A DNA stretch of 64,000 bases from Hyphomicrobiales bacterium (GTDB taxonomy: Bacteria; Pseudomonadota; Alphaproteobacteria; Rhizobiales; Methyloligellaceae): NCBI GenBank assembly GCA_021775555.1, contig JAJFHP010000022.1:56627-120626 (forward strand), written 5' to 3'. The notes beneath the pieces are model-generated. The model saw only the letters and a program-made list of their open reading frames with translations, was not told the origin of the DNA and did not search any database. This document shows positions 32,002 to 47,958 of this stretch, piece by piece (within the stretch, counting starts at the first letter, position 1; the number at the start of each line of letters is the position of its first letter). The position numbers were made by a program, and so were the translations under genes.

Positions 32002-33015
32002 TCAGTGCATGTTTTCCGGCTGCTGCATTTTCAATTCGGGCGTCATGTCAGAAAACCGGGTTTTTTTACCAAAGCGCCAGCGCCGGTGAAACCATATCCA
32101 CTGTTCGGGATATTCGCGTATCCAGGATTCCACGATGTTCTGAATCACTGCCGTTGTCTTGGTGACATGGATATGCCCTTCCGCATCCCGAGGTAAATTG
32201 ATGGGGTCGGTGATCTCTAGACGGAAACGGTGGTTCGGTAATCGTATCGCACGTGCACCATAGACGGTGCAGTCATATTGCCGTGCCAGTTTGGCAATAA
32301 GTGGATTTGATTCCACCAGGTGGCCAAAAAAGGGAACCAGCACGCCCCCCTTGTATCTCTGATCCGCGAGCAGTCCGACACGACCACCCCGTTCCAGCGT
32401 GGCCGCAAGCTCGAATAGAGAACCATTGCCTGAAGGTACCAGGGGCCCCATGAGTTTTGATCGTGCCTTGATCAGAGAGTTTGCGAAGAACTGGTTGTTT
32501 GGCGCTCGAAACATGGACGTCACGTCGAGGCCGTTTTTCGCGGCACATATTGAGAGCAGTTCCCAATTCGCCATGTGGCTGGTGAAAATGATCGCGGGCT
32601 TTTTCTGGTCACGCAGCCTGATGAAATTTTCCTCGCCTCTGACCTCTATATTGCCAGCCTCCAGATCGTCAGGATCATAGCTGAAGACCTGATCCAGATA
32701 GGCGTATTCCAACCCTGTACGGGCCAGATTGTCCCAGCTCCCACGAAGAATCTCCAATCGCTCTTCCCTCGTTTTTTCAGGGAAAGCCCTTTCCAGGTTT
32801 TTCATGGCTGTTCTGTAGCGCGGCAAAACAAAAGTTGATGCGCGCAGCACCTTCCCGGCAAGATCAATACTCGTGTCATGAGGAAACAGCCGAAGGACTT
32901 TCAGGCAAGCGCTGGCAATTGCCGCCAGCGACCAGTCGGCAATCAGGGGTGCAAGATGTCTATTACCGCGCCGCACCGCTTCAGCCCTTAATATCCGCAG
33001 TGCTGCCTGCGGCAT
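32002..33015 (-). CDS. lpxXL: Lipid A acyltransferase (LpxXL-like)
   Basis: IIFTSHMANWELLSICAAKNGLDVTSMFRAPNN HX4E family motif; terminal gene of acpXL-type cluster. Confidence 0.85.
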   Translation of the reverse strand: MPQAALRILRAEAVRRGNRHLAPLIADWSLAAIASACLKVLRLFPHDTSIDLAGKVLRASTFVLPRYRTAMKNLERAFPEKTREERLEILRGSWDNLARTGLEYAYLDQVFSYDPDDLEAGNIEVRGEENFIRLRDQKKPAIIFTSHMANWELLSICAAKNGLDVTSMFRAPNNQFFANSLIKARSKLMGPLVPSGNGSLFELAATLERGGRVGLLADQRYKGGVLVPFFGHLVESNPLIAKLARQYDCTVYGARAIRLPNHRFRLEITDPINLPRDAEGHIHVTKTTAVIQNIVESWIREYPEQWIWFHRRWRFGKKTRFSDMTPELKMQQPENMH

Positions 33016-33057
33016 ATGTAAAGAAGCGATCGGAAGCTTGGTGCATGTCTGCTTGTC

Positions 33058-34137
33058 TCACAGGGTCACCAGGAATTTGCCGAAGACCTGCCTGTCTCTC
33101 AGCCGCTTCAGACCTGTTTCCAGATCATCAAGTTCCAGCACCGTATCAATGACCGGCTTGATGGTTCCCGCGGCCAGCTTTTCCAGTGCGTCTGAAACAT
33201 TTCGCTTCGAGCATCCGAAACTGCCGAACAACCGAAGTTGCTGCTGGAACAGCTGGTAGAGATTGGTTTCTGCCGTGACACCTGTCGTCGAACCACAGGT
33301 GACCAGCCGGCCTCCTTTGCGCAGGCTAAACAGGCTGCCTGCCCAGGTGTCGGCCCCAACATGTTCGAAAACAACATCCACGCCCTTCTTGTTGGTGAGC
33401 TTGCGGACAACACCCTCAAAGCGATCCTCCCGGTAATTGATTGCGTGATCGGCGCCAAGCTCAAGCGCCTTTTGCGCCTTCTCATCGCTGCCTACGGTTG
33501 TGATAACGCTGGCCCCAACGGCTTTTGCCATCTGTATGGCAGCCGTGCCGATACCGCTACCACCTGCCTGAATGAGGATCGTTTCGCCGCGTTCCAGTTT
33601 GGCATTGTCGAACAGCATATGCTCAACAGTGCCGAAGGTAACCGGAGCGCAGGCGGCAGTGACCGCATCGACACCGTCAGGCACGGGAATGGCGAGACGC
33701 GCCGGCATGTTCACCAGCTCCTGGGCAAAACCGTCAATGTGAAATCCGTGTATGCCCCCGACATCTTCGCAGAGATTATCCTTGCCTGCCCGGCAAGCCA
33801 CGCATGTATTACAGGTCTCTGCACCATAGAGGGCGACGAGTTGACCTGCCCCGAGCCTTTTTACACCGCTTCCGGTAGCTACGATTTCACCGGCGGCTTC
33901 GACACCGATGGTGATTGGCAATTTCCTGCGCGCGAAAGCCATGCCGCGCCATCCCCACACGTCGATATGGTTCAGGGCAACAGCCCTGATCCGAACCTGC
34001 ACCTCGTCTTCACCAGGCGGTGGAGGCGGGTCTAAGTGTACGATCCGGATGTCCTGCTCGGCCTGGAGCTGAAGAGCACGCATAGACTTTGCTGATCCTT
34101 GGGAAACCTTTTCAGGACGAATGAGGGTGTCAGCCAT
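33058..34137 (-). CDS. Zinc-binding alcohol dehydrogenase/quinone reductase family (Adh2XL-like)
   Basis: GVEAAGEIVATGSGVKRLGAGQLVALYGAETCNTCVACRAGKDNLCED; position within acpXL cluster. Confidence 0.88.
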   Translation of the reverse strand: MADTLIRPEKVSQGSAKSMRALQLQAEQDIRIVHLDPPPPPGEDEVQVRIRAVALNHIDVWGWRGMAFARRKLPITIGVEAAGEIVATGSGVKRLGAGQLVALYGAETCNTCVACRAGKDNLCEDVGGIHGFHIDGFAQELVNMPARLAIPVPDGVDAVTAACAPVTFGTVEHMLFDNAKLERGETILIQAGGSGIGTAAIQMAKAVGASVITTVGSDEKAQKALELGADHAINYREDRFEGVVRKLTNKKGVDVVFEHVGADTWAGSLFSLRKGGRLVTCGSTTGVTAETNLYQLFQQQLRLFGSFGCSKRNVSDALEKLAAGTIKPVIDTVLELDDLETGLKRLRDRQVFGKFLVTL

Positions 34138-34876
34138 GGAGTGTCATCCCCGCACTCATTCCGCCATCAATGGGGAGAATGCTTCCCGTAATATATTTGG
34201 CCGCAGGCGACATGATATGGCTCACCAGCGCTGCAACCTCGAAAGGCACTGCGAACCGGCCGATGGGTATCTGTTTTTCCATCTGCTCGCGGTGGTCCGC
34301 ATAGGCTGACATCATTTCCGTATCGACATAGCCGGGTGCGATGAAGTTTGCGGTTACGCCCTTGCGGGCCAACTCAACCGCAACCGTGCGTAAATAGCTG
34401 AGCATCGCACCCTTGGTTGCCGCGTAGACCGAGTTGCCTGGCATGGCATGGAGAGCGGCCATTGAGCCAATGCCGACAATCCGGCCGGAGCGCGCCCGCA
34501 TCATTGGACGGATGGCGCCGGTGACCAGTCTCGTCAAGGACCAGAAATTGACCTGCATTGTCTTTTCCGCCTCGTCTTGGTCAATCATTGCAGCAAGCGC
34601 GTCACAGGACTGGCCGGCATTGTGCACCAGGCCGTAAAGCGTATCGGTTTCCGACAGGCGCTCTGTGAGTTCGTCAACCTGAACGCGATTGGCAAGATCA
34701 AGGTGACAGGTGCTGAATTCCTGCCCAGGCCAGTTCGATCTCAATTCGACAAGCAAGGCTTCAGCTTCATCAAGCGAATTCCGATAGGTGAAATTGATAT
34801 CAAATCCGGCCTCGGCAAGGGCGCAGACAATCTGCCGGCCAATGCCCCGGCTTCCCCCGGTAACGGCTACCAGCAT
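34130..34876 (-). CDS. SDR family 3-oxoacyl-ACP reductase (FabG-like)
   Basis: VAVTGGSRGIGRQIVCALAEAG; YAATKGAMLSYLRTVAVELARKGVTANFIAPGYVDTEM. Confidence 0.92.
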   Translation of the reverse strand: MLVAVTGGSRGIGRQIVCALAEAGFDINFTYRNSLDEAEALLVELRSNWPGQEFSTCHLDLANRVQVDELTERLSETDTLYGLVHNAGQSCDALAAMIDQDEAEKTMQVNFWSLTRLVTGAIRPMMRARSGRIVGIGSMAALHAMPGNSVYAATKGAMLSYLRTVAVELARKGVTANFIAPGYVDTEMMSAYADHREQMEKQIPIGRFAVPFEVAALVSHIMSPAAKYITGSILPIDGGMSAGMTLHG

Positions 34877-34916
34877 GGAGCGCTCCTCAACCACTTTTCA
34901 CCTCACTCATAAAAAT

Positions 34917-36200
34917 TCAGGCGGGTTCCGCTGACAGCACCAGGCACACATTCTGGCCGCCAAACCCGAACGAGTTGGACAAAACCATATTGACCGGGGC
35001 GTCCCGCTTTTCGTTGGGCACAACATCGAGCGGCATATCAGGGTCGGGGGTATCGTAGTTGATCGTCGGCGGGATCGTTCCGGTTTCAATTGTCATCAGC
35101 GAAAATGCAGCCTCCACCGCACCAGCAGCCGTCAGGGTGTGCCCGACAATCGATTTATTCGAACTGATTGGTGTCCCGGCGAGACGATCTCCAAACACGG
35201 TGGCAAGCGAAAGATACTCGATCTTGTCGTTTTCGGGCGTGCTGGTCCCATGGGCGTTGATGTAGTCAATTTGCCCGGGCTCTACACATGCATCGTCAAG
35301 CGCGTTTTGAATTGCACCGATTATCGGTGTCCCGTCAGGCGTCGAGCGCGTGCGATGGAAGTTATCGGCGCGCTCACCGCAGCCGCGCACGACACCGAGT
35401 ATCTTTGCGCCACGCGCCTTGGCGGCATCATATGATTCCAGCACCAACGCTGCCGACCCTTCCGCCATGACGAAGCCATCACGATCCTTCGAGAATGGCC
35501 TCGCGGCAGCTTCAGGAGGCTCATTGCGGGTCGAGAGGGCCGAGAGCAGCGAGAAGCGGATAAGCGATTCTGCATGAACCGAACCATCGGTTGCCACGCA
35601 CAGTGCGGAGTCCGTTTCACCGCGACGGATGGCTTCCACGCCGAGCTGAATGGCCGTGCCACCCGATGCGCAAGCGGTTGACAGAGAGACAGGCTGACCC
35701 CGGGTTCCGAATTTGTCCGCGAGATATTCTCCCACTTGGCCAAACAGGAAGAGAGCATGCCTGTCCTCAAAACTGCCCCGACGGGCAGCTTGCTTCAGTT
35801 GTGGCTGGGTTACCGGTGAGCCGTTTCTCGCACTTTCATAGACCTCTATGCGCGTGGGCCATTCCACTTCCGCCGGGGGCGTTGCAAGAAATAGTGGACC
35901 CGGGAATGAGGCAGCGGATCCGATACCCGATTGCGAGATTGCCTCGGTAACGGCCTCCGCTGCGAAGGCCTTTGCCAGCCCCGGCGCTGAAATCTTATCA
36001 AGCGCAAAATCATCAATGGTACCGGCGATCCTGGTACTCAGCCCATCGGTAGGAAAACGCTTGATCTCGTGTACCCCGGAACGGCCTGCAGTCAGGCCCG
36101 CCCAGTTGTCTGCCATACCCCTGCCGAGCGACGTCACAATACCGATGCCGGTGACTACGACGACTGGCCGTCCATTCCCGTCTCTCATTGCTCTCGCCAT
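34917..36200 (-). CDS. Beta-ketoacyl-ACP synthase II-like
   Basis: VVVTGIGIVTSLGRGM; STACASGGTAIQLGVEAIRRGETD; YINAHGTSTPENDKIE; SNKSIVGHTLTAAGAVEA. Confidence 0.93.
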   Translation of the reverse strand: MARAMRDGNGRPVVVVTGIGIVTSLGRGMADNWAGLTAGRSGVHEIKRFPTDGLSTRIAGTIDDFALDKISAPGLAKAFAAEAVTEAISQSGIGSAASFPGPLFLATPPAEVEWPTRIEVYESARNGSPVTQPQLKQAARRGSFEDRHALFLFGQVGEYLADKFGTRGQPVSLSTACASGGTAIQLGVEAIRRGETDSALCVATDGSVHAESLIRFSLLSALSTRNEPPEAAARPFSKDRDGFVMAEGSAALVLESYDAAKARGAKILGVVRGCGERADNFHRTRSTPDGTPIIGAIQNALDDACVEPGQIDYINAHGTSTPENDKIEYLSLATVFGDRLAGTPISSNKSIVGHTLTAAGAVEAAFSLMTIETGTIPPTINYDTPDPDMPLDVVPNEKRDAPVNMVLSNSFGFGGQNVCLVLSAEPA

Positions 36201-37448
36201 TTATTCACCTGCCATGTGGGTTGCGGGTTGCTGCACGCTTTCAACCAGCGCCATGCCTTCGCCGCGCCAGTGGCCCCAGCTGGTCACGAGAATACGTTCA
36301 GGATTTCCAGTAAGCGGTTTCTCAAAATCGGAAGGCCCAAAGGGTTCAAAGAAATGTTTTTTGGAGGCAGCAATTGCTGCCAGTGCCAGTCCAGCAGGAA
36401 ATTGAGCCTCAACTGCGTGGCCAAGCATGGTGCTGACGGCGCGTGCCGAAACTTCAAATCCTTTTTCAGAGAGGCCCTCCAAAAAAGCACGTTCTTCGCC
36501 CGTTGCCGGCTCTGCGCCACAGGCACCCGACAAGACGGCGAGCGGGCCTGGTTCCAGCCTGCCATTGAGGGCGTCAATTTGCTTTTCAGCATTTGCCGTC
36601 GCCTTGCCCGGAGCCCTGTTGCACCGATCCGACAGCACTTCAGTCAGCCGGGCGTATGCGGTTGCACCGCGGTTCAATGCATGCGAGCGGCTTTCCAGTA
36701 CAAGGAACGCGCCCACGCTGCCATTCACGATGCCGCCGCCTTTTGTCTTGCGCTCCCACAAGGGCTCGAATTCACCCGGCCATAAACATTTGCCCAGCTC
36801 GAACATGAATTGCATGTCGTCACGCTCGGCGCTGTATGCCCCACCGATGAGGCAAAGCTCCGATTGCCCGTGCCGGATTTTCTGAACGGCAATCTGGGCC
36901 GCGGACACGCCCGCCATTTCCTCGCCCATGAAGGTTCGCGATGATCCGCACACCTTGTGAACAATGGAGATGTTTCCGGACATGAGGTTTGGCAGCTGGG
37001 AGAGAAACAGCGTTGGCCGCAACTCAGTGGAAAGCGTTTCGTTTAAAAAGACTTCCGGATCGTTTCGCTTGCCGATGTCCTCGAGAATCTTTCCATCCAC
37101 CTCCATATCGCGTTCACCGCCATCGGCGGCAATAATCATATCCATCTTGTCCAGATAGGTATGGTCTCCGGCAATCCCGGCATCTGACAGTGCCAGTCCG
37201 GCTGTGTAAGTTCCGAGCCGCTGCCAGGGACCCATTTGCCTCAGGTCACCGCGTTTGGGTATTTGACTTGAAAAGTCGACTTCAACAAGCGGGTGAACTG
37301 CATATGGTGCAAATGACTGCGCATCAATCACCGGTTCACGGCACTTGCCATTTCCCAAGTGATGCCAATGCTCCTCGCATCCTTCGCCAAGGGAGCTAAC
37401 CAGGCCAATGCCGGTGATCCAGACTTCCTCTTCGTGCCGGGTGTCCAT
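36201..37448 (-). CDS. Divergent beta-ketoacyl-ACP synthase-like protein
   Basis: VWITGIGLVSSLGEGCEEHWHHLG; KS-like fold; active-site Cys region VHKVCGSSRTFMGEEMAGVSA. Confidence 0.85.
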   Translation of the reverse strand: MDTRHEEEVWITGIGLVSSLGEGCEEHWHHLGNGKCREPVIDAQSFAPYAVHPLVEVDFSSQIPKRGDLRQMGPWQRLGTYTAGLALSDAGIAGDHTYLDKMDMIIAADGGERDMEVDGKILEDIGKRNDPEVFLNETLSTELRPTLFLSQLPNLMSGNISIVHKVCGSSRTFMGEEMAGVSAAQIAVQKIRHGQSELCLIGGAYSAERDDMQFMFELGKCLWPGEFEPLWERKTKGGGIVNGSVGAFLVLESRSHALNRGATAYARLTEVLSDRCNRAPGKATANAEKQIDALNGRLEPGPLAVLSGACGAEPATGEERAFLEGLSEKGFEVSARAVSTMLGHAVEAQFPAGLALAAIAASKKHFFEPFGPSDFEKPLTGNPERILVTSWGHWRGEGMALVESVQQPATHMAGE

Positions 37449-37449
37449 A

Positions 37450-37914
37450 TCAAACCTCCAGAGCCAGGAGACCGGCATCTTCCGCGCTGGTCATGATGTG
37501 GCGGTGCAGTTCTTCATTCGGGAACGGCATCGTCTTCATTTTGATCGTGCCCTTGCAGGCCTGCGATCCGTCGTGAAGCACTTGTGCTTTCATAACCGAG
37601 AAACCGGAGCCGGCATGCTCAACCCAAGCCTCAATGATGAGTTCGGACTCTGGTTCCACCGGCTTGCGCAGCTTTGCTTCGTCCACGCTGATGAGCAGGG
37701 GCAGCAGGCTGAACTCATTCAGCGCCATGATCAGAAATCCTGAAGCCTGCGCCATGGCCTCTATGAGAAGGACGCCGGGCATCAGAGGATAACCCGGAAA
37801 ATGCCCCTCAAATACCGGGCTTTTCCTGGGCACTTTCGAGCGGGCCACCAGCGACTGCTCATCGGTGCTGAGCGCCAGGACTTCATCGATCATCTTGAAA
37901 TATTCGAGGCGCAT
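37450..37914 (-). CDS. 3-hydroxyacyl-ACP dehydratase, FabZ-like
   Basis: VPRKSPVFEGHFPGYPLMPGVLLIEAMAQASGFL. Confidence 0.9.
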   Translation of the reverse strand: MRLEYFKMIDEVLALSTDEQSLVARSKVPRKSPVFEGHFPGYPLMPGVLLIEAMAQASGFLIMALNEFSLLPLLISVDEAKLRKPVEPESELIIEAWVEHAGSGFSVMKAQVLHDGSQACKGTIKMKTMPFPNEELHRHIMTSAEDAGLLALEV

Positions 37915-37921
37915 GTCGCGG

Positions 37922-38203
37922 TCACGCCGCTTTGGCAGCTATGAGCTCGTCGACCCGCGCGCACAGGTTACTCATGATGAAGTATTTGTCCGAGGAAGCC
38001 TGACCTTCATTGATATCCTTCGTCCAGGTCTCGAGCGGGATCTTGATTCCGAATGTTTTATCGATGGCGAAAACGATATCGAGAAAATCAAGGCTGTCTA
38101 TTTCGAGATCGTTTATCGTATGGCTGTCAGGAGTGATTTCCTCAAAAGGGATCTGACCGGTATCTGCAATTATTTCTGCAACACTGTGGAATGTGGACGA
38201 CAT
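37922..38203 (-). CDS. acpXL: Acyl carrier protein AcpXL
   Basis: [45 protein letters not shown]; matches recalled AcpXL pattern. Confidence 0.92.
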
Positions 38204-38332
38204 AGCGCCTTCAACCTCCATCAAATTTCATACCTCGGGGCATCCATCACGGGGGCCCTCTTGCATGGGAAACGCTTAAAATCGGCATCTCTCATCGGGC
38301 GAAAACGTATCGCAGAATTCGTGCGCCAAAAT

Positions 38333-38346
38333 CTGATCTAAATCAC
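38333..38346. promoter_or_regulatory. FNR-type box 1
   Basis: cTGATctaaATCAc between acpXL and the 38422 gene. Confidence 0.6.
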
Positions 38347-38421
38347 AAAACATGAAAATTGAGCGGTCTAAGAGTGCGGATCAGGACAGATCATTTGCCA
38401 TTCGGAAAGAGGCTGCTGAAC

Positions 38422-39582
38422 ATGCAAGACCAACATGGAATTTCGACGAGCAGCTTTTGCGGTAAAAGCGGTGGCACAGAACATTTCATCTCTGTCACGC
38501 CGCCATCTGATGCAAGCTTTGAAGACCAGGTTGCCCATGTCGATACGCATTACCGGGAAACCGTCGCGGCGTTGGGTCTGGAGCCTGAGACAGCAGTTTT
38601 CCGGCGTCTTTTCCTGAGTGACGTTATCAACCAGGCACCCCAGATTGTGGATTCCGGGCTTGCCAGCAATCCCGAAGAAGGGCCCGTAGCTGTCTCGATA
38701 GTTCAGCAGCAACCTCTGCCCGGTTCCAAGATATCTGTACTGGCCTATCACCTGGAGAGCGAGAAACCAGTCGCGAAAAAGCGTCTTTCAAATAAGCATG
38801 TAATGATCGAGAAAAATGGTTTGCGTCACCTGTGGAGCACGCGTCTTTGTGCCAGTGATGACCACGGGACTTTCTGTGCTGAAGATCAGACGCGCCAGGT
38901 ATTCGATAACCTGATAGGGACAATCGAGGGCGAGGGAGGAAAGCTCCGCGAGGATTGTGTCCGCACCTGGATTTACGTCAAGGACGTCGATGTCTTCTAC
39001 CAGCCGATGGTCGACAGCCGGCGCGAGCTTTTTGTCCAGCAAGGGATGAATGGAAATTCTCATTACATAGCCAGCACTGGTATTGAGGGGGCTTGCGCAC
39101 ACCGTCATGACCTTGTGGCCATGGATGCCTATTCCGTACTTGGTCTTGGCGCGAACCAGGTATCCTATCTGAACGACTTTGACCGCCTGTGCCCGACCAA
39201 GGACTATGATGTCACGTTCGAGCGTGGCACCCGGATCGCTTATGCGGACCGCTCACATCATTTCATTTCAGGTACGGCAAGCATCGATCGCAAGGGCCAA
39301 GTGCTTCACCTCGGCAATGTCATGCGCCAGCTCGACCGGGCGCTGGACAATGTCAACGCATTGCTCATGTCTGGCGATGCATCTCTTGAGGATATGAAAT
39401 ACCTCATTGTTTATCTGCGCGATCCCACTGACTACCAGAAAATCAGCCAGTACCTTTCCCGTCAAATTCCCAACATACCGGCCCTCATTGTGGAGGGTGC
39501 AGTCTGTCGTCCTGAATGGCTCGTCGAGGTTGAAGGTGTCGCGGTGGCACCCAATGAGGATCCGGCACTGCATGCATTCTAG
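38422..39582 (+). CDS. YjgF/RidA-superfamily, chorismatase (FkbO/Hyg5/XanB2)-like protein
   Basis: NSHYIASTGIEGACAHRHDLVAMDAYSV...IPALIVEGAVCRPEWLVEVEGVAV. Confidence 0.7.
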   Translation: MQDQHGISTSSFCGKSGGTEHFISVTPPSDASFEDQVAHVDTHYRETVAALGLEPETAVFRRLFLSDVINQAPQIVDSGLASNPEEGPVAVSIVQQQPLPGSKISVLAYHLESEKPVAKKRLSNKHVMIEKNGLRHLWSTRLCASDDHGTFCAEDQTRQVFDNLIGTIEGEGGKLREDCVRTWIYVKDVDVFYQPMVDSRRELFVQQGMNGNSHYIASTGIEGACAHRHDLVAMDAYSVLGLGANQVSYLNDFDRLCPTKDYDVTFERGTRIAYADRSHHFISGTASIDRKGQVLHLGNVMRQLDRALDNVNALLMSGDASLEDMKYLIVYLRDPTDYQKISQYLSRQIPNIPALIVEGAVCRPEWLVEVEGVAVAPNEDPALHAF

Positions 39583-39610
39583 GCGCGTATACAAAGAGAA
39601 GGACCAGGAA

Positions 39611-40294
39611 ATGATTGCACATACAGAGCCCCCATTCCTTGTGCTGGACGAGGGTGCCATCTCAGCCAGCAAGCTTTGCAAAGACCCGTATGACTATGCC
39701 TTTGTCGATCAGGCTTTGCCCCTCTCAATGAGGGACGAGGTATTGACTGATGCGCCGGAAATACCCTGGCGTGGCAGCTACGCCATGAAGCAACTCGATT
39801 ATGGTCCGCGCTTCGACCAGATCCTCACGGATCTCTATTCTGACCGTTTCCGGAGATTGGTCGAACGCAAGCTGGAACTGGATCTGGAAGGCTGTCCTCC
39901 AAGCATCGTGATGATGGGCAATACGACGGGCGCCTATAATGAAGGCTACGCGCATCCTGATTCCCCGCACAAAATTGCGACCGTGATACTGGGTTTTAGT
40001 GAAGAGTGGCCTTACGAGAGGGGCAAGTTCCGTGTCCTGAGAAGTGATGATCGGGAAGACTGCGCGTTCGAGTTTCCTCCCCTGTACGGCAAAATGCTGA
40101 TGTTCCGGGTGTGTGATCATTCCTGGCATGGCTTCCTGCCGCAGAAGGGCAAGCGTATGAGCCTGCAGCTTTGTTACGTGGACTCGGAAAAGTACGCACG
40201 GCGCGAGGACTGGCGCCATGGCATCAGTGCATTGGCGAAATCCAATGCGATTACCCGCAAGGTTTTGCAATGGGCACCACGCCGCTTGTTCTGA
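39611..40294 (+). CDS. 2OG-Fe(II) oxygenase
   Basis: AHPDSPHKIATVILGFS (HxD)...DHSWHGFLPQKGKRMSLQLCYV (distal His/Arg). Confidence 0.8.
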   Translation: MIAHTEPPFLVLDEGAISASKLCKDPYDYAFVDQALPLSMRDEVLTDAPEIPWRGSYAMKQLDYGPRFDQILTDLYSDRFRRLVERKLELDLEGCPPSIVMMGNTTGAYNEGYAHPDSPHKIATVILGFSEEWPYERGKFRVLRSDDREDCAFEFPPLYGKMLMFRVCDHSWHGFLPQKGKRMSLQLCYVDSEKYARREDWRHGISALAKSNAITRKVLQWAPRRLF

Positions 40295-40343
40295 ACGGTC
40301 CCACCCTGATCATCAAAGAACATCCAGCGGCCCAATTGCATTG

Positions 40344-40383
40344 GCCCCCGGCAGCCCCCCTAAATATTACTGCTGCCGGGGGC
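40344..40383 (+). repeat. 12-bp perfect inverted repeat between two oxygenase genes
   Basis: GCCCCCGGCAGC(40344-40355)...GCTGCCGGGGGC(40372-40383), immediately before AAGGAGG. Confidence 0.9.
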
Positions 40384-40399
40384 TAAGGAGGAAACAAAA

Positions 40400-41101
40400 A
40401 TGACCTATCCACCACTTCCCGACGCCGCAACGGTTGCGAGTCATTTCTGCAAAGCCTTGAGAGATGCCGGGCGCTCTGAGGATCCTTATCTTCACTGGAA
40501 ACTTACCGATGTATTTCCGGTGGAGATGTGTACCGGAATTCTCACTCTGCCGATTGCCCCCGCGATTATCGGGGAAACAGACGGCACGCGTGACACCTAC
40601 AATGACAGCCGGGCCTTCGTTACTCCAGAACGCAGGGAAGATTTTCCAGCTTGTGCGGTGCTGGCCGAGGCTCTTCAGAGGCCTGAGGTCGCGCAGCAAT
40701 TCGAGGCCACCACCGAGATCGATGCCGAGGGGAGTTTTTTGCGGATTGAATATATTCAGGATATCGACGGTGCGTGGCTGGAACCGCATACAGACATCAA
40801 GGAGAAGCTGTTTTCCATGGTGATTTATCTGTGTACCGGTCCTAAAGCCGATGATTGGGGAACCGATATTTATGATGCTGATCAAAAATGGGTTGGGCGT
40901 GCGCCAGCCACCTTTAACTCAGCCGTCATCTTCGTTCCTGGAGAAAATACCTGGCACGGTTTTGAGCCACGCCCGATCAAGGGGGTGCGCCGCCTCATGG
41001 AGATCAATTATGTCCGTGACTGGCGCGATCGTGAACAGCTTGTCTCGCCGGAAAAAGCCATCACAACCGGCCGGAGTGCTCCGTTGGCGGCAACCGGATA
41101 A
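40400..41101 (+). CDS. 2OG-Fe(II) oxygenase
   Basis: LEPHTDIKEKLFSMVIYL...GENTWHGFEPRPIKGVRRLMEINYV. Confidence 0.85.
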   Translation: MTYPPLPDAATVASHFCKALRDAGRSEDPYLHWKLTDVFPVEMCTGILTLPIAPAIIGETDGTRDTYNDSRAFVTPERREDFPACAVLAEALQRPEVAQQFEATTEIDAEGSFLRIEYIQDIDGAWLEPHTDIKEKLFSMVIYLCTGPKADDWGTDIYDADQKWVGRAPATFNSAVIFVPGENTWHGFEPRPIKGVRRLMEINYVRDWRDREQLVSPEKAITTGRSAPLAATG

Positions 41102-41163
41102 CCATGAAAGGTTGACCGGGCTCAGGATCCATAAATGAATGGTGGCTGGGCCGCACTAATAAT

Positions 41164-41601
41164 TCAAGGCGCCCACAGGGCATGCTGGCGCCAGGGTGGC
41201 GGCACGGAAAGTTCTCCGTGGAGATGAGACTTGCTGCTGCGTAGACAGAGCGATTGCCATGCACCGCGCCATTCCTCTGGCAGAGAATATGGTGGAGTGA
41301 CGTTATCATCGGGCTGAAAACCAAAGCGCTTGTAATAAGTAGGATCGCCGAGCACGTAAACTTGGCTCACTCCGGCATTTTCCAACCATCGCAAGCCTGC
41401 GCGGACAATTGTGCTACCAATGCCTTGCCGTTGCCAAGCGGGAGCAACGGCGAGAGGCCCAAGGAGCACGACCTTGTCAGTTCTTCCAGCAATGCTGCAT
41501 GTCGTGAAGATGACATGCCCTACCAGAGCATTGTCAGCAGTCCCGAGAAGCGAGAGAACAATTGGTTCAGATCTTAGCAGTTCTCTCACAAGAGGCAGCA
41601 A
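41164..41601 (-). CDS. GNAT N-acetyltransferase; coding continues 5' without a canonical start
   Basis: LLGPLAVAPAWQRQGIGSTIVRAGLRWLENAGVSQVYVLGDPTYYKRFGF; in-frame extension DIRQSLPNDVIWIEKLYPSAFPDED lies upstream of the TTG at 41601. Confidence 0.8.
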   Translation of the reverse strand: MLPLVRELLRSEPIVLSLLGTADNALVGHVIFTTCSIAGRTDKVVLLGPLAVAPAWQRQGIGSTIVRAGLRWLENAGVSQVYVLGDPTYYKRFGFQPDDNVTPPYSLPEEWRGAWQSLCLRSSKSHLHGELSVPPPWRQHALWAP

Positions 41602-41757
41602 ATCCTCATCGGGGAATGCGCTCGGATAAAGCTTCTCGATCCAGATAACGTCGTTCGGCAGGCTTTGGCGGATGTCGATTTTATCGATGGTGTCCTCGTC
41701 ATCAAATAGATCGCAGGAAACGCAGCAAGTGTCATATTTTGGTTATGAGTCCTGACT

Positions 41758-42432
41758 CTAGGCGAGTTCCCAGGTGTCGCGCCATTGGGGTGCAACATAA
41801 TTGATGATGATGGATTTGCGGATGCCCTTCACCGGATGGTGGCCCACGCCGTGCCAGCTGTTTTTACCGGGAATAAAAATGACACCCACATTTTTGCCAT
41901 AAGGTGCTGAATGTACATAGCGGAAATCAGGCGGTCCTTCATGAATGTCGGTGCCTGCATTCACCAGTGTGGGATCATCGGACAGGTACACCAGCATGGT
42001 GAACTTCTTAACAAAAATGTCCGTATGCGGTTCCAGCCAAAACCCTTCGGTGTCCTGGCAATATTCGATCCGAAGACGTGTATCCGACAAATCCGTGCCT
42101 GTCTTATGCTCGATTGCCCGGATCACGCGTAAATCCTTGAACCCTGATACGACCTGTTTGCAGGCATCGAATCGTGCCTGGTTTTCAGGAGTAAAATAGA
42201 CCCGAAGCTTGTTGTTGATCTCTCGCTTGCCCCCGAAAACAGCGCCCTTTGGAGGATCAAAGGGAAGGTTGAGAATCTCATCGCAAAGAGTGTCGGGCAG
42301 GGGCTTCTCCAGAAGCCAGTGATCAAACGGGCTTGTCATGTGTCCTGCCTTGCCCAGGCAGGACAGGAACGCGCTGGCAACCGGATTATCAGATGCGGCG
42401 GGTTTCAGGTCGAGTTCGGCTGTTTGTCCCAA
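41758..42432 (-). CDS. 2OG-Fe(II) oxygenase
   Basis: LEPHTDIFVKKFTMLVYLSDD...GKNSWHGVGHHPVKGIRKSIIINYV. Confidence 0.85.
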   Translation of the reverse strand: MGQTAELDLKPAASDNPVASAFLSCLGKAGHMTSPFDHWLLEKPLPDTLCDEILNLPFDPPKGAVFGGKREINNKLRVYFTPENQARFDACKQVVSGFKDLRVIRAIEHKTGTDLSDTRLRIEYCQDTEGFWLEPHTDIFVKKFTMLVYLSDDPTLVNAGTDIHEGPPDFRYVHSAPYGKNVGVIFIPGKNSWHGVGHHPVKGIRKSIIINYVAPQWRDTWELA

Positions 42433-42444
42433 GCTTCACATCCT

Positions 42445-43125
42445 TTATGCAAATGGGTTGATCCGTTTCAATGTCGCTGAAAAACGATGCCGTCCCAGCT
42501 CCCGCTCCATAGCTGTGTGGCTCGTCATCCAGTTGAACATCAGATAACGCCGCTCCCCGACATAGGGTTCATGGCCATGCCATGAGTTTTCCGCGCGCAG
42601 GAAAGACGCGAGCGTGCCACCGCTTGGTGGAACTTCGGCGAGGTAATCCTCAAGGTTGTCGGGGTTTTTCAGCATGCGAAGCCGTCCGCCCCCTTCGTCC
42701 CAGACATCATTGAGATAGAGCAGGCAGGTGACGAACTTTGCCTTGGTATCCGTGTGGATACGGCCGTCCTTGGCCTGGGCATGACCACGCACGGTAATCA
42801 TCAGAGGCTTATCGGAAAGGTCGACGCCATACTTGTCGGCGATAACATCCTCAAACTCCGTGCTCCTGATGTCTTCGACCAGCTGGGCAAGTGCTGGCCC
42901 GTAGGACAGTTCTGAAAGCGGAAATATCCCCGGCTTCTGAATATCTGGAAAATCGGCCCTTATGGCTGCCAGGTCGACGGCACTCAATACGCCGGATGCT
43001 GCAAAGAACTGGAATGGTTTGCGTGTCACCTTTGCCTTTTTGATGGCATCAAAATCGATCATAGCCGCGCTCACTTCTTGCCGGGATGCCACGAAGTTTC
43101 GCGTCATCGCTTTAGAATGTTTCAA
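42445..43125 (-). CDS. 2OG-Fe(II) oxygenase
   Basis: GRIHTDTKAKFVTCLLYLNDVWDEGGGRLRML...AENSWHGHEPYVGERRYLMFNWM. Confidence 0.85.
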   Translation of the reverse strand: MKHSKAMTRNFVASRQEVSAAMIDFDAIKKAKVTRKPFQFFAASGVLSAVDLAAIRADFPDIQKPGIFPLSELSYGPALAQLVEDIRSTEFEDVIADKYGVDLSDKPLMITVRGHAQAKDGRIHTDTKAKFVTCLLYLNDVWDEGGGRLRMLKNPDNLEDYLAEVPPSGGTLASFLRAENSWHGHEPYVGERRYLMFNWMTSHTAMERELGRHRFSATLKRINPFA

Positions 43126-43157
43126 GTGTGATTTAAGCGGTCAGTTGAGGGGGGACT

Positions 43158-43171
43158 CTGATCTGGATCAC
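43158..43171. promoter_or_regulatory. FNR-type box 2
   Basis: cTGATctggATCAc upstream of 43125 minus-strand oxygenase pair. Confidence 0.6.
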
Positions 43172-43206
43172 AAAAATTACGCACCTAAAACTTCTGCCCG
43201 GGCGGG

Positions 43207-43929
43207 CTAACCGGCAGCTTTGGCAAGCGCTTCGGTATCTGGTACCGAGAAACGCCGCCGGCTCGGTTGCTGAATGAGACCCTTGTTCTTCAGGGCGGTG
43301 AACTGCCTGCAGACGGTTTCGTAGGTCAGCCCCAGAAAATCAGCTATCTCGTGTCGTTTCAGATGCAGATCCAGCGCAACCGGCCGCGAGCTCCCATTGT
43401 GGGCGGTCCCGGTGATTGCGGTTCGTGTGGCGAGCATTAGCAGAAGGCTTGCGACCCTCTCTTCTGCTGTTTTCCGCCCAAGCAGAACCATCCAGTCCCG
43501 GGCGGAGTCGAGATCATCCAGTGTCTGCTCCAGGAACCGATGCTTCAAATCTGGAAACTCTTCCAGCATTTGCTCAAAGCCTGAATAAGGAAAACAGCAG
43601 AGCTCGACCTGGGTTGCAGCCTGAGCGTAGTAGGAACTCCTTCTGCCGAACACCTGTCCAAGGCAATCGACGGGGAGGAGCAAATCGACCACTTGCTGAC
43701 GCCCGTCGAACAGGACTTTGGTGAGTTTCACAACACCGGAAATGACGGCGGCAAAGAAATCCGGGTCATCATCGCTTTGCAGGATATTTTCTCCCGGCTC
43801 GAACTTGCGCCTGTTTGCAATTCTCCGGAATTGCAGGAGTTCGTCCTGTTTCAGGGCACCGCACAAACCCTCGCGACGTATGACACAGGAGGCACAGCGC
43901 CCCAGTTCAGATGCTATTTCGGCATCCAT
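43207..43929 (-). CDS. Crp/Fnr family regulator, FNR-like with Fe-S cysteines
   Basis: CASCVIRREGLC N-terminal Cys cluster plus VDCLGQVFG; HEIADFLGLTYETVCRQFTALKNKGLIQ HTH. Confidence 0.92.
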   Translation of the reverse strand: MDAEIASELGRCASCVIRREGLCGALKQDELLQFRRIANRRKFEPGENILQSDDDPDFFAAVISGVVKLTKVLFDGRQQVVDLLLPVDCLGQVFGRRSSYYAQAATQVELCCFPYSGFEQMLEEFPDLKHRFLEQTLDDLDSARDWMVLLGRKTAEERVASLLLMLATRTAITGTAHNGSSRPVALDLHLKRHEIADFLGLTYETVCRQFTALKNKGLIQQPSRRRFSVPDTEALAKAAG

Positions 43930-44159
43930 AGACAACTCCCCGTTTGCAGCCACCCAACACACTCTGGCGGCATGAACACAATCGCCGTGTCGTGGCAATC
44001 ATAAGACCGCTAACTCAGAAAATTGAGCAGATTATGTGCCCGGCGCTGAGACCAATTGACGCTTTGTTGTAAATCCATTTGCGGCAGCTAAGGCTCTAGG
44101 AACAGTGCGTATTCCACCAGCCGTAACGACATGCATATGGGAGGCACATCGCGCTGCAT

Positions 44160-44173
44160 ATGATCCAGATCAG
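44160..44173. promoter_or_regulatory. FNR-type box 3
   Basis: aTGATccagATCAg upstream of 44301 oxygenase. Confidence 0.55.
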
Positions 44174-44225
44174 TAAATTGAGTGCTTCCGGTCTCTAGGG
44201 TGGGGTTCCGGTATCATTTCACTGG

Positions 44226-44239
44226 CTGATCCACATCAG
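44226..44239. promoter_or_regulatory. FNR-type box 4
   Basis: cTGATccacATCAg upstream of 44301 oxygenase. Confidence 0.55.
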
Positions 44240-44300
44240 CCGGGGAATTCCGATTGACGCGTCGAATGTGATCACGCACCAGCGACAAGGACCGTTTCTC

Positions 44301-45110
44301 ATGAGTAGTGCCCAGGCTGAAATTCAAGAAAAGGCCGGATCGCCGCGCGCCTCATCACCGCGCGCTTCCAAGTCGATTGAGCAGAAAATCATCAAACATC
44401 TCATCCACGCGATCGAGGGCACGGACGCAAACGAAGAGCCTTACTGCCACTATTATCTGGAAAATGCGTTCCCGCCAGATGTCTATGAGGAGATGCTCGA
44501 CCGCCTTCCCGAACCTGAAGACTATCGCCCCCTGAACCTCAAGGAGTGGTCGCGCGAAAACGGAGAAAGCACCCGCGACAGGTTGTTCCTGTCAGAGGAA
44601 GGGCTTTCCGGTTTGCCGGCGAAAACGCGCAAATTCTGGCAGTCAATTGCAACGGCACTCACGAGTGAGTCCCTGAAGCTGGTGATTTTCGCCAAACTCG
44701 CCAAGGATATCGCGTTGCGTTTCGACTGTGATGAGAGAGAGGTGCCTGACATCAAGGGATATCCCAGGGCCGTTTTGATGCGCGATACGGAAGGCTACCG
44801 CATCAAGCCCCATCCCGATGGCACCAACCGGATTGTCACGATGTTGTATTACCTGCCCCACGACAGGAGCCAGGAGGATCTCGGGACATCGGTTTATGTG
44901 CGCCAACCCTGGACGAAACGCCTGCTTGGAGACAAGTTCAAAGAGGTTGCCCGGTTCCCGTTCCGCCCCAACAGCTCATGTGCCTTCGTGGTCAACCGTC
45001 TGCCCGAGAAAACCAGCTGGCATGGCAGGGAGTTGGTCAGCGCCGATGCCGGAGTGCGCAATCTCATCCTGTGTCAGTACCGGGTGAGCGACGACGAGCA
45101 TCATTACTGA
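44301..45110 (+). CDS. 2OG-Fe(II) oxygenase
   Basis: IKPHPDGTNRIVTMLYYLPHD...EKTSWHGRELVSADAGVRNLILCQYRV. Confidence 0.82.
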   Translation: MSSAQAEIQEKAGSPRASSPRASKSIEQKIIKHLIHAIEGTDANEEPYCHYYLENAFPPDVYEEMLDRLPEPEDYRPLNLKEWSRENGESTRDRLFLSEEGLSGLPAKTRKFWQSIATALTSESLKLVIFAKLAKDIALRFDCDEREVPDIKGYPRAVLMRDTEGYRIKPHPDGTNRIVTMLYYLPHDRSQEDLGTSVYVRQPWTKRLLGDKFKEVARFPFRPNSSCAFVVNRLPEKTSWHGRELVSADAGVRNLILCQYRVSDDEHHY

Positions 45111-45355: not shown

Positions 45356-46108
45356 ATGGCTAAGCTAGTTCGATTTATATACCGGTTCGATTTTAGCGAA
45401 GTCTGCAGTCGATATCTCAATTGTCCAGGAACCGCTTATGAGATTCTGAATTCCGTTGAAGAAAAGTTTTGGGACACCGTATCCGACAACGTACAAAATC
45501 GAGCTTTGTCCGCTGTCTATAAATCGGAAAATAAGGTGTATCGAGAACTAAACTTTCTGCCTTTTAACGTGAATGGTTCAGTAGAATTCCTCAGTGGCGG
45601 CATTGATATTGATGATCTTCGTAAAGATCCCAGTTTTGTTGCCATCAGCAAGCTGACAAATGATTTTTGTCATAAGTTCGAGGTCCACGGTCTTGCGCGC
45701 GCCGGCATTCGTTTGTTCCTTGTCGAAAGTGCGGCAGGTGATCAGGAAACATTTTTGGGAAGAAGCAAAAGGATCGTCCGCGATGATGTGATCGTTGCTG
45801 TCAATGACAACTTGGGTGAACTGACAGATATCGCGTTTAGTTTGGAGGGTAAGGGAGAGGATCAAATTTTCTACCGCGTCTCCTTCGGTCCGTTAGTAGA
45901 AGAAGACACGGATAAATATCTGTTTCCTAAAGGTAAACCGGAAAAAAAGGACTTGTTCATCGAAAGTGGTTATAATTTTATGAGCGATATGGATTTCTAC
46001 GAGAAAGATTTTTCCATCCAAGAATTTACATTGGAAAAATGGGCTCGTACTAAAGTGGGTAAGGCTTCAATTTTCATGACTGAGTTCTCTAAGCTTATGA
46101 TCAGTTAG
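45356..46108 (+). CDS. Hypothetical protein (islet gene 1)
   Basis: 250-aa ORF, first of a tight three-gene set. Confidence 0.75.
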   Translation: MAKLVRFIYRFDFSEVCSRYLNCPGTAYEILNSVEEKFWDTVSDNVQNRALSAVYKSENKVYRELNFLPFNVNGSVEFLSGGIDIDDLRKDPSFVAISKLTNDFCHKFEVHGLARAGIRLFLVESAAGDQETFLGRSKRIVRDDVIVAVNDNLGELTDIAFSLEGKGEDQIFYRVSFGPLVEEDTDKYLFPKGKPEKKDLFIESGYNFMSDMDFYEKDFSIQEFTLEKWARTKVGKASIFMTEFSKLMIS

Positions 46109-46118
46109 CGGAATCACA

Positions 46119-46595
46119 ATGGTTACTAACCCAACTGCATTTTTGGATTCGGGCCTGGCGCTAAAGCAAAATAGTCCGGTAACTAACCGACGCTCTGAAA
46201 CTAATGTCGGCCATGACGAAGACGGTGAGCTGACTAAGCTTGAGACCATCGAAAAAGCTGACATCTATTACAAAAAAGAAATGGTTAAGTTGGACGTGAA
46301 ATTGCCGCTGGCGGACCCAATCCACGTGGAACGCGTCAAAGGTGTCATCACTCAGGTCGACGCTGTTGTCATTACATTGAAATGCAAGCTGTCCAACGAT
46401 CATGAACGGCTCATCGAAATTCCCACAGCGTTAGTGCCCCATAATTTGTCTCACTTTGGCGCTCCGGTTTGGATTTCAGTTGATACGGATGGTGGAATTC
46501 GACGAATTTCAATAACTGAGAGGGAGGAGATCGATCCCATTGCTCCTCCAGAAGATGCAGATGTGATTGATGCGTGGATCAATAAGCAGGACTAA
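46119..46595 (+). CDS. Hypothetical protein (islet gene 2)
   Basis: 158-aa ORF, 10 bp after gene 1, stop abuts next ATG. Confidence 0.75.
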   Translation: MVTNPTAFLDSGLALKQNSPVTNRRSETNVGHDEDGELTKLETIEKADIYYKKEMVKLDVKLPLADPIHVERVKGVITQVDAVVITLKCKLSNDHERLIEIPTALVPHNLSHFGAPVWISVDTDGGIRRISITEREEIDPIAPPEDADVIDAWINKQD

Positions 46596-47708
46596 ATGCT
46601 ACGTTTTCACGTCCTGAATGTAGGACAAGGCGACTCAATAATTGTCGAGCACATAGGGTCAGACGGCCATTCATTTGGACTGATCGATTCTAACGCCGAA
46701 CGCGGTACGCCACCGAAAGCTCTTACAAAACTTGTAGAACTCGGCGCGAAACAACTTTCATTCATTTGCATGACTCATCCCCACCGCGACCATTATCGCG
46801 GACTACACGCTGTGCTAAAATATTTCTCAGGAGGAATCGATCAATTCTTCTCTTTTCCAGCAGGGGAGTTTTTTGGCCAGAAGGCGAGGCAGCTTGCAGG
46901 GCGATACCGGGAATTGGCAAATAGTCAGGATGATCAGTCAGTCGCGAGTGATGCGTACGAATTCATCCGAATTCTGATGGAGATGGACGATCAGTTCGGA
47001 TTCGCAAATATTGTCCAATTGTCAGGTCCCTACAACGAAGTTCCAGTCGTAGGCTTCGACGATGTCGAGATCTTTAGCGCATTGCCGTATTTGTTTTACA
47101 AAGATGCCTACCTCAGACGAGTGAGAGATGGCGATCCATCAATCTTTGAAAGCGAGAAAGAAAATGATCTGAGCGTGGTGCTGGTGTTCCGCTACAAAGA
47201 TATCAACGTTCTTTTGGGGGGGGATGCGACGGCCAAAAATTGGACCAGACGGCTAGGACATGAAGTGACTCGCAATCTTACAAAGATTGATAGTACCGCA
47301 GTTAAGTTGCCTCACCATGGCTCCAAGCATGATTGCACGGATGATGCTTTTGAGGTCGCTTTCTCGTCCGAGGCTGACGGCATGAAATACGCACTTATTT
47401 CAGCTAACGGCGTAAAGTTGCCAGATCATGAGGTGCTCCAGTCTTTAGAAGCGAGGGGCATCCGTCCATACTGTACGAATTTGCATCCTGCTTGCGGCAA
47501 TAATATTCAATTGTTGCTCCAGAAATCTGACCTTGATCCGGTCTTGGCTTCGTACATAAATCAGCTCTCTGTCGACGCCGTTTCTCAGCCCTGCCAAGGT
47601 GACATAACATTCACAATCAAATCAGACGGTACGCAACAAATTGATCGAGAGTACCAAGTGCCGTGCGGTTTTCGTGGTGAACTAGAAATGTTCAGTAGCA
47701 GTAGCTAG
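46596..47708 (+). CDS. MBL-fold metallo-hydrolase, ComEC/Rec2-like (islet gene 3)
   Basis: FHVLNVGQGDSIIVEH...FICMTHPHRDHYRGL...VVLVFRYKDINVLLGGDAT...AVKLPHHGSKHDC. Confidence 0.9.
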   Translation: MLRFHVLNVGQGDSIIVEHIGSDGHSFGLIDSNAERGTPPKALTKLVELGAKQLSFICMTHPHRDHYRGLHAVLKYFSGGIDQFFSFPAGEFFGQKARQLAGRYRELANSQDDQSVASDAYEFIRILMEMDDQFGFANIVQLSGPYNEVPVVGFDDVEIFSALPYLFYKDAYLRRVRDGDPSIFESEKENDLSVVLVFRYKDINVLLGGDATAKNWTRRLGHEVTRNLTKIDSTAVKLPHHGSKHDCTDDAFEVAFSSEADGMKYALISANGVKLPDHEVLQSLEARGIRPYCTNLHPACGNNIQLLLQKSDLDPVLASYINQLSVDAVSQPCQGDITFTIKSDGTQQIDREYQVPCGFRGELEMFSSSS

Positions 47709-47883: not shown

Positions 47884-47958
47884 TGGTGCCCACGAGTGGA
47901 ATTGAACCACTGGCCTCTCCCTTACCAAGGGAGTGCTCTACCCCTGAGCTACGTGGGC
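47884..47958 (-). tRNA. tRNA-Thr(GGT), CCA encoded
   Basis: GCCCACGTAGCTCAGGGGTAGAGCACTCCCTTGGTAAGGGAGAGGCCAGTGGTTCAATTCCACTCGTGGGCACCA; loop TTGGTAA. Confidence 0.95.

Follow-up and report, generated by a model that had tools for sequence, protein, structure and literature searches.

A chorismatase and 2-oxoglutarate oxygenase operon with FNR-type operators that recurs across proteobacterial classes

Genes and inherited units of the locus

The DNA analysed (the window) is a 64,000-nucleotide stretch of G000, a Hyphomicrobiales-type alphaproteobacterial metagenome-assembled genome (MAG; 3.54 Mb, 97.5% complete); the closest named relatives of this MAG are labelled Hyphomicrobiales. Between 38.3 and 45.1 kb lie, in this order, a chorismatase gene (CHORIS), genes for the 2-oxoglutarate (2OG)-Fe(II) oxygenases OxyA1 and OxyB1, a GNAT acetyltransferase gene on the minus strand, and genes for OxyB2, OxyA2, an FnrL-type Crp/Fnr regulator and OxyB4 (Table 1). 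An earlier description made from the letters of the window (the sequence-only reading) had treated the oxygenases as a battery of five around an FNR-type sensor, with a YjgF/chorismatase-like gene as neighbour. Five oxygenase genes are indeed present; however, they are two OxyA-OxyB pairs of separate ancestry plus OxyB4, not one five-enzyme battery, and the cluster consists of three separately inherited units. Module A (38422-41101) is the chorismatase with OxyA1 and OxyB1, hereafter the triad; module B (41758-43929) joins the regulator to the separate OxyA2-OxyB2 pair; and OxyB4 is a third unit with its own promoter. The chorismatase gene is a core member of an operon and not a mere neighbour. 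By comparison with relatives, its start was placed at ATG 38422 rather than at a possible TTG at 38359, and that of FnrL at 43929 rather than at a possible TTG at 43998, whilst relatives also suggest the OxyA2 start given in the table.

Table 1. Features of the cluster and its flank, in window coordinates
Feature	Coordinates	Strand	Remarks
FNR-like operator CTGATCTAAATCAC, 5' of module A	38333-38346	.	core palindrome at 38334; one of six TGATYYRRATCA sites genome-wide
Chorismatase (CHORIS), predicted hydroxybenzoate-forming	38422-39582	+	full fold; Hyg5 catalytic Glu and Gly/Gly/Cys invariant in 35 sequences
OxyA1, 2OG-Fe(II) oxygenase, triad clade	39611-40294	+	PolD/PasI-like fold
OxyB1, 2OG-Fe(II) oxygenase, triad type	40400-41101	+	
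OxyB2, 2OG-Fe(II) oxygenase, partner of OxyA2	41758-42432	-	
OxyA2, 2OG-Fe(II) oxygenase	42445-43125	-	likely start 43062
FNR-like operator CTGATCTGGATCAC, 5' of OxyA2-OxyB2	43158-43171	.	core palindrome at 43159
FnrL-type Crp/Fnr regulator	43207-43929	-	CxxCx7C and VDC; recognition helix ETVCR
FNR-like operator ATGATCCAGATCAG, 5' of OxyB4, in the intergenic region common with FnrL	44160-44173	.	core palindrome at 44161
Second FNR-like site CTGATCCACATCAG, 5' of OxyB4	44226-44239	.	core palindrome at 44227
OxyB4, longer 2OG-Fe(II) oxygenase	44301-45110	+	
acpXL-fabZXL-fabF2XL-fabF1XL-SDR-MDR-lpxXL lipid A very-long-chain fatty acid operon	32002-38224	-	PRK06508, PRK06519, PRK06501, lipid A acyltransferase

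The AlphaFold model of the chorismatase (pLDDT 86) matched the structures 5ag3, 4bps and 5a3k (FkbO, Hyg5) over its full length in Foldseek (E ∼1e-19, TM 0.61-0.72). The catalytic glutamate, E334 of Hyg5, corresponds to E390 in 407-aa numbering, is invariant in 35 of 35 sequences and is aligned in the PDB profile match. G241, G305 and C383, mapped by alignment and likewise invariant, are the Gly/Gly/Cys residues given for CH-II chorismatases, the formers of 3-hydroxybenzoate (3-HBA; PMC7170507). The fold and these residues predict a hydroxybenzoate as product. The score against the curated subfamily TIGR04444 was 30.3 bits, far under the cut-off of 325 bits, and the protein thus belongs to a divergent branch and not to that subfamily. 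It has the full-length fold, the catalytic glutamate and the Hyg5-type signature in common with FkbO, Hyg5 and XanB2 of 3-HBA and 4-HBA pathways (e.g. xanthomonadin, neoantimycin); however, identity over the aligned structure is ∼15%, and the triad differs in its predicted FNR control, its 2OG oxygenase partners and its lack of polyketide synthase or nonribosomal peptide synthetase genes. A xanthomonadin or aryl polyene cluster was rejected, as no ketosynthase or carrier genes travel with the chorismatase; the ketosynthase and acyl carrier protein (ACP) genes near the window triad are the acpXL lipid A set, adjoining only in the window's family.

More distant relatives of the chorismatase were seen at L155-L158, in Bacteroides, Parabacteroides and a deltaproteobacterium. 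Identity is 37-40% along most of the length at L155-L157 and 27% in part of the query at L158. No 2OG genes are annotated adjoining these relatives; in the Bacteroidota, di-heme or c-type cytochromes, hemerythrin or a YncE/cytochrome d1-like protein are among the neighbours.

All five oxygenase reading frames were confirmed; those at 39611 and 42445 are of class A, and those at 40400, 41758 and 44301 of class B. The iron ligands HxD...H (the last being the His of WHG) and the 2OG-binding Arg form four columns that are invariant in 29 OxyA-type and 25 OxyB-type sequences, all five window proteins included; judged by these residues the active sites are intact, as the sequence-only reading had held. 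Most matches to Pfam PF13640 were under the curated cut-off, which OxyA2 alone passed, and OxyB2 had no PF13640 match. OxyA1, the one oxygenase modelled, gave a confident 2OG fold, a double-stranded beta-helix (pLDDT 87), with PasI and PolD as the best Foldseek matches (E 5e-13) and PHD2 and a Pseudomonas prolyl hydroxylase also found (E ∼1e-6); PolD/PasI were also the solved structures nearest to OxyA2 (phmmer 8e-11). PasI and PolD are octosyl acid phosphate enzymes of nucleoside antibiotic pathways, and the PasI structure was solved with octosyl acid phosphate. Since they are the closest solved structures to OxyA1, a small-molecule substrate is favoured, a likeness that does not name the substrate; identity to OxyA1 is ∼19%, and no nucleoside biosynthesis genes were recognised near the triad. 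In the tree, OxyA1 and OxyA2 lie in different clades (support 100/100). The OxyA2-OxyB2 pair recurs in several families of the order and, among those examined, FnrL adjoins it only in the window's family and in G026.

Further oxygenase paralogues are present in G000 at C21, C30 and C56. The C30 locus (L062, 9664-11268) has at its core an OxyA paralogue directly 3' of a gene of the ELM1 family (PF06258); DUF2336 genes lie close by, and the ELM1-OxyA paralogue pairing is also found in G001, G007 and G037. At C56 (L063, 9705-11218) an OxyB4 paralogue is followed by a sulfotransferase gene (PF03567), which suggests hydroxylation and then sulfation of some substrate. An FnrL-linked relative of module B in G004 (L070, C125, 2085-13862) has a denser oxygenase set with FNR-like sites: two P450s, a flavin monooxygenase (FMO), HemN, three short ACPs, a CDGSH-like protein and OxyA2, OxyB2 and OxyB4. 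An apparent OxyA-OxyB fusion of 615 aa at L109 was rejected as an overlong open frame.

Recurrence of the triad and its genomic setting

When 85,462 species genomes were scanned with an alignment of the chorismatase, the gene turned up in 51 further loci of alpha-, beta- and gammaproteobacteria, including Acetobacteraceae (Rhodopila, Acidiphilium, Acidocella), Rhodospirillales, Azospirillum, Hyphomicrobiales, Sulfuriferula and other beta- and gammaproteobacteria. Near-duplicate loci (e.g. L104/L106, L093-L095 and L100/L102/L107) mean that 51 overstates the number of independent cases, and distant members will have been missed because the scan used two peptide motifs. By tblastn, OxyB lies near the chorismatase in 45 of the 51 loci and OxyA in 42, in a gene order that varies, with the chorismatase first or last. 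The recurrence of this arrangement in many genera rules out chance. Homologues scattered without co-occurrence, named beforehand as speaking against a system, were not what we found: module A is syntenic across classes, and the distance matrices of the three triad proteins correlate (r 0.47-0.62).

OxyA is not beside the chorismatase in nine genomes, five of which have it elsewhere; in three of these, G423, G434 and G447 of a single lineage, it comes after NrdD/NrdG and FNR boxes are present. OxyA1-type matches were absent from all 29 UbiV-positive, chorismatase-negative genomes. The acpXL operon adjoins the triad at just three of the 51 loci (L081, L082 and L128), all from the window's own family, and was not judged part of the system.

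The association with low-oxygen genes is strong. Of 53 genomes with the chorismatase, 47 carry UbiV, compared with 31 of 289 Alphaproteobacteria (10.7%) and none of 16 chorismatase-negative family members, a comparison that ignores phylogeny and takes its background from Alphaproteobacteria only. Near the triad, at least one of UbiT, UbiU and UbiV occurs in ∼11 loci, NrdD in five and HemN in three. UbiV and CHORIS are directly adjacent in Acidiphilium, Acidocella and others, and the Acidiphilium plasmid pACMV3 has the order UbiT-UbiU-UbiV-chorismatase-PdxS-PdxT, with OxyB-OxyA nearby. HemN, NrdD, UbiTUV and PdxST are replacements for oxygen-dependent enzymes; thus, the triad is found within a set of genes suited to little or no oxygen. 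With the UbiT-UbiU-UbiV pathway it has the FNR-type setting and the genome co-occurrence in common; however, its enzymes are unrelated, its oxygenases need O2 and it is absent from most UbiV genomes.

The FnrL-type regulator and its operators

The regulator resembles FnrL (NF045989, 235 bits, under the 300-bit cut-off) and has the four cysteines of an Fe-S cluster, C-x2-C-x7-C plus that of VDC, which bears out the FNR-like cluster noticed earlier. Its recognition helix is ETVCR and the window sites are of the form G/C/A-TGAT, a shifted version of the canonical E-x2-S-R helix with TTGAT half-sites; the FNR helix has a serine at the position of the ETVCR cysteine. All FnrL proteins of the family relatives and of G026 (L065-L072) have ETVCR, and in these genomes the same G/CTGAT-type operators precede OxyA2 or the chorismatase or, in some, a gene for an ACP, a P450 or CoxA. 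Where OxyA2-OxyB2 occurs without FnrL (G083, G119 and G230), the upstream box is the canonical TTGATNNNNATCAA. The change from Ser to Cys in the helix, with the loss of the outer T from the operator, is a small case of possible regulator-operator co-evolution. A gene for cytochrome c oxidase subunit I (CtaD/CoxA) adjoins the FnrL/OxyA2 module at L071 and L072 (G011 and G026), and that of G026 is preceded by an FNR-like site.

A scan of the window with TTGAYNNNNRTCAA, allowing at most one mismatch, gave no site at the three promoters and a match at 42458, inside the end of OxyA2; the promoter sites appeared only when the TGAT core was used. The core palindrome TGATNNNNATCA is present in all three promoter regions (Table 1), and the window as a whole has six such sites where 0.69 were expected. 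Over the entire 3.54-Mb genome there are just six matches to TGATYYRRATCA: three sites are at the cluster's promoters, two lie inside genes and one is upstream of a polyphosphate-kinase-like gene. Elsewhere, perfect FNR boxes such as TTGATCCAGATCAA stand upstream of triad genes at 27 of the 51 loci, and their density is 0.66/kb near triad starts, compared with 0.031/kb in the rest of the same DNA, a 21-fold difference (Poisson p ∼2e-26). At the level of sequence, the operon is conserved and equipped with FNR-type operators, and FNR-type control is predicted for all three window promoters. The oxygen-responsive control and low-oxygen adaptation proposed by the sequence-only reading are supported, with the link resting on operators and not on gene adjacency alone. 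In its FNR boxes and its co-location with HemN, NrdD and NarK the triad resembles known FNR/FnrL regulons with the O2-independent isozymes HemN and NrdDG; it differs in that its target genes are oxygenases and that the operator of the window genus is G/C/A-TGAT and not TTGAT.

Possible function and alternatives

We give a probability of about one half to the reading that module A is a microoxic biosynthetic operon, in which a hydroxybenzoate-derived compound is tailored by two dioxygenases; the biosynthetic flavour suggested earlier is supported. As oxygen falls, an FNR-type regulator would switch on module A, and the chorismatase would convert chorismate to pyruvate and a hydroxybenzoate, most likely 3-hydroxybenzoate. 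OxyA and OxyB, acting as a pair, would then use the oxygen left in microoxic habitats to oxidise the hydroxybenzoate or a conjugate of it. In the window lineage, an FNR-controlled OxyA2-OxyB2 pair with a local regulator, and OxyB4, would have been added beside module A. That the oxygenases act on the chorismatase product, and what the final product is, we infer from gene linkage only. A more tentative and rather doubtful extension is that the triad, in a microoxic pathway dependent on dioxygenases, turns chorismate into a redox-active aromatic, either an electron shuttle or the precursor of a quinone ring. FNR would switch this pathway on when oxygen becomes scarce, and it would have spread among the proteobacterial classes together with genes for O2-independent biosynthesis.

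The system is real, conserved and apparently undescribed, and its low-oxygen signature is strong. Its component families are known, and as far as the open literature was searched their combination is new: nothing relevant linking chorismatase to 2OG oxygenases or Fnr was found in open-access papers, and a search of these for the PDB codes 9BLQ and 9EI6 gave nothing useful. It pairs O2-consuming enzymes with a scarce-oxygen regulator across several proteobacterial classes, and would add a chorismate-derived product to low-oxygen physiology. The triad is also a candidate wherever the origin of alphaproteobacterial hydroxybenzoate is unexplained (PMC12423496).

Several points weigh against this biosynthetic reading. 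2OG oxygenases need O2 and are odd members of an anaerobic-type regulon. UbiV was not found in the window genome, a 97.5% complete MAG, or in G002, and the linkage to UbiTUV may reflect shared regulation rather than a pathway, since 20-kb neighbourhoods also collect other FNR genes. FNR binding is itself a prediction from operator sequences, and in G007, G012 and G026 FnrL lacks the fourth cysteine at the usual position. Nor does any transporter, ligase or carrier recur with the triad, which leaves the product's fate blank.

The strongest alternative, which we think unlikely, is that the triad serves low-oxygen synthesis of ubiquinone or a related quinone, the chorismatase supplying hydroxybenzoate where UbiC is missing and the oxygenases hydroxylating a ring precursor. 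The UbiV enrichment and the UbiV-CHORIS adjacencies speak for this, as does the absence of UbiC from the window's family and from most alphaproteobacterial triad genomes searched; in addition, there is no explanation of where Hyphomicrobium denitrificans obtains its 4-hydroxybenzoate (PMC12423496). However, ten triad genomes also have UbiC, for which reason simple UbiC replacement was rejected, chorismatase-negative relatives are without UbiC too, and the signature residues of the active site are those of enzymes that form 3-HBA. In the window genome the triad is present but UbiV was not found, and just two of the 31 UbiV-positive genomes of the class carry the chorismatase, so that it is not needed for the UbiV pathway. 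The distant chorismatase relatives also count against a ubiquinone role, as Bacteroides and Parabacteroides make menaquinone.

The other alternatives are weaker. OxyA and OxyB might be protein hydroxylases or oxygen sensors, like PHD2 and the bacterial prolyl hydroxylases, tied to the chorismatase by shared regulation only; the Foldseek matches to those proteins, the FNR co-regulation and the separation of OxyA-OxyB from the chorismatase in one lineage fit this idea, but the small-molecule enzymes PasI and PolD match far better and the close co-occurrence of OxyA1 with the chorismatase argues for one pathway, which makes it improbable. We attach a small probability to an ordinary expansion of a paralogue-rich family without joint function, for which the further G000 paralogues and the single copies elsewhere in other family members could be cited, given that the same FNR-type operator stands at three promoters and that the pairs are conserved across families and the triad across classes. 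Tailoring of the lipid A very-long-chain fatty acid of the acpXL operon or, for module B, of an ACP-bound acyl chain is very improbable. The direct adjacency of acpXL in the window and its relatives, and the three short ACP genes, two P450s and FMO with module B in G004, are what favours it; tailoring by the acpXL neighbour was rejected because the adjacency is confined to one family, and the peptide or lipid hydroxylation envisaged by the sequence-only reading found no support beyond this lineage-limited neighbour. Chorismatase is not known to act in fatty acid chemistry, and LpxO, which hydroxylates lipid A, is a member of a different 2OG family.

Between OxyB4 and a tRNA-Thr gene (47884-47958) lies an AT-rich run of three genes (45356-47708; 250, 158 and 370 aa). 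The third protein, of 370 aa, has a metallo-beta-lactamase fold and matches the PADLOC models LmuA, RTasMBL, PDC-M48B and Avs1a, making the run a candidate small defence operon.

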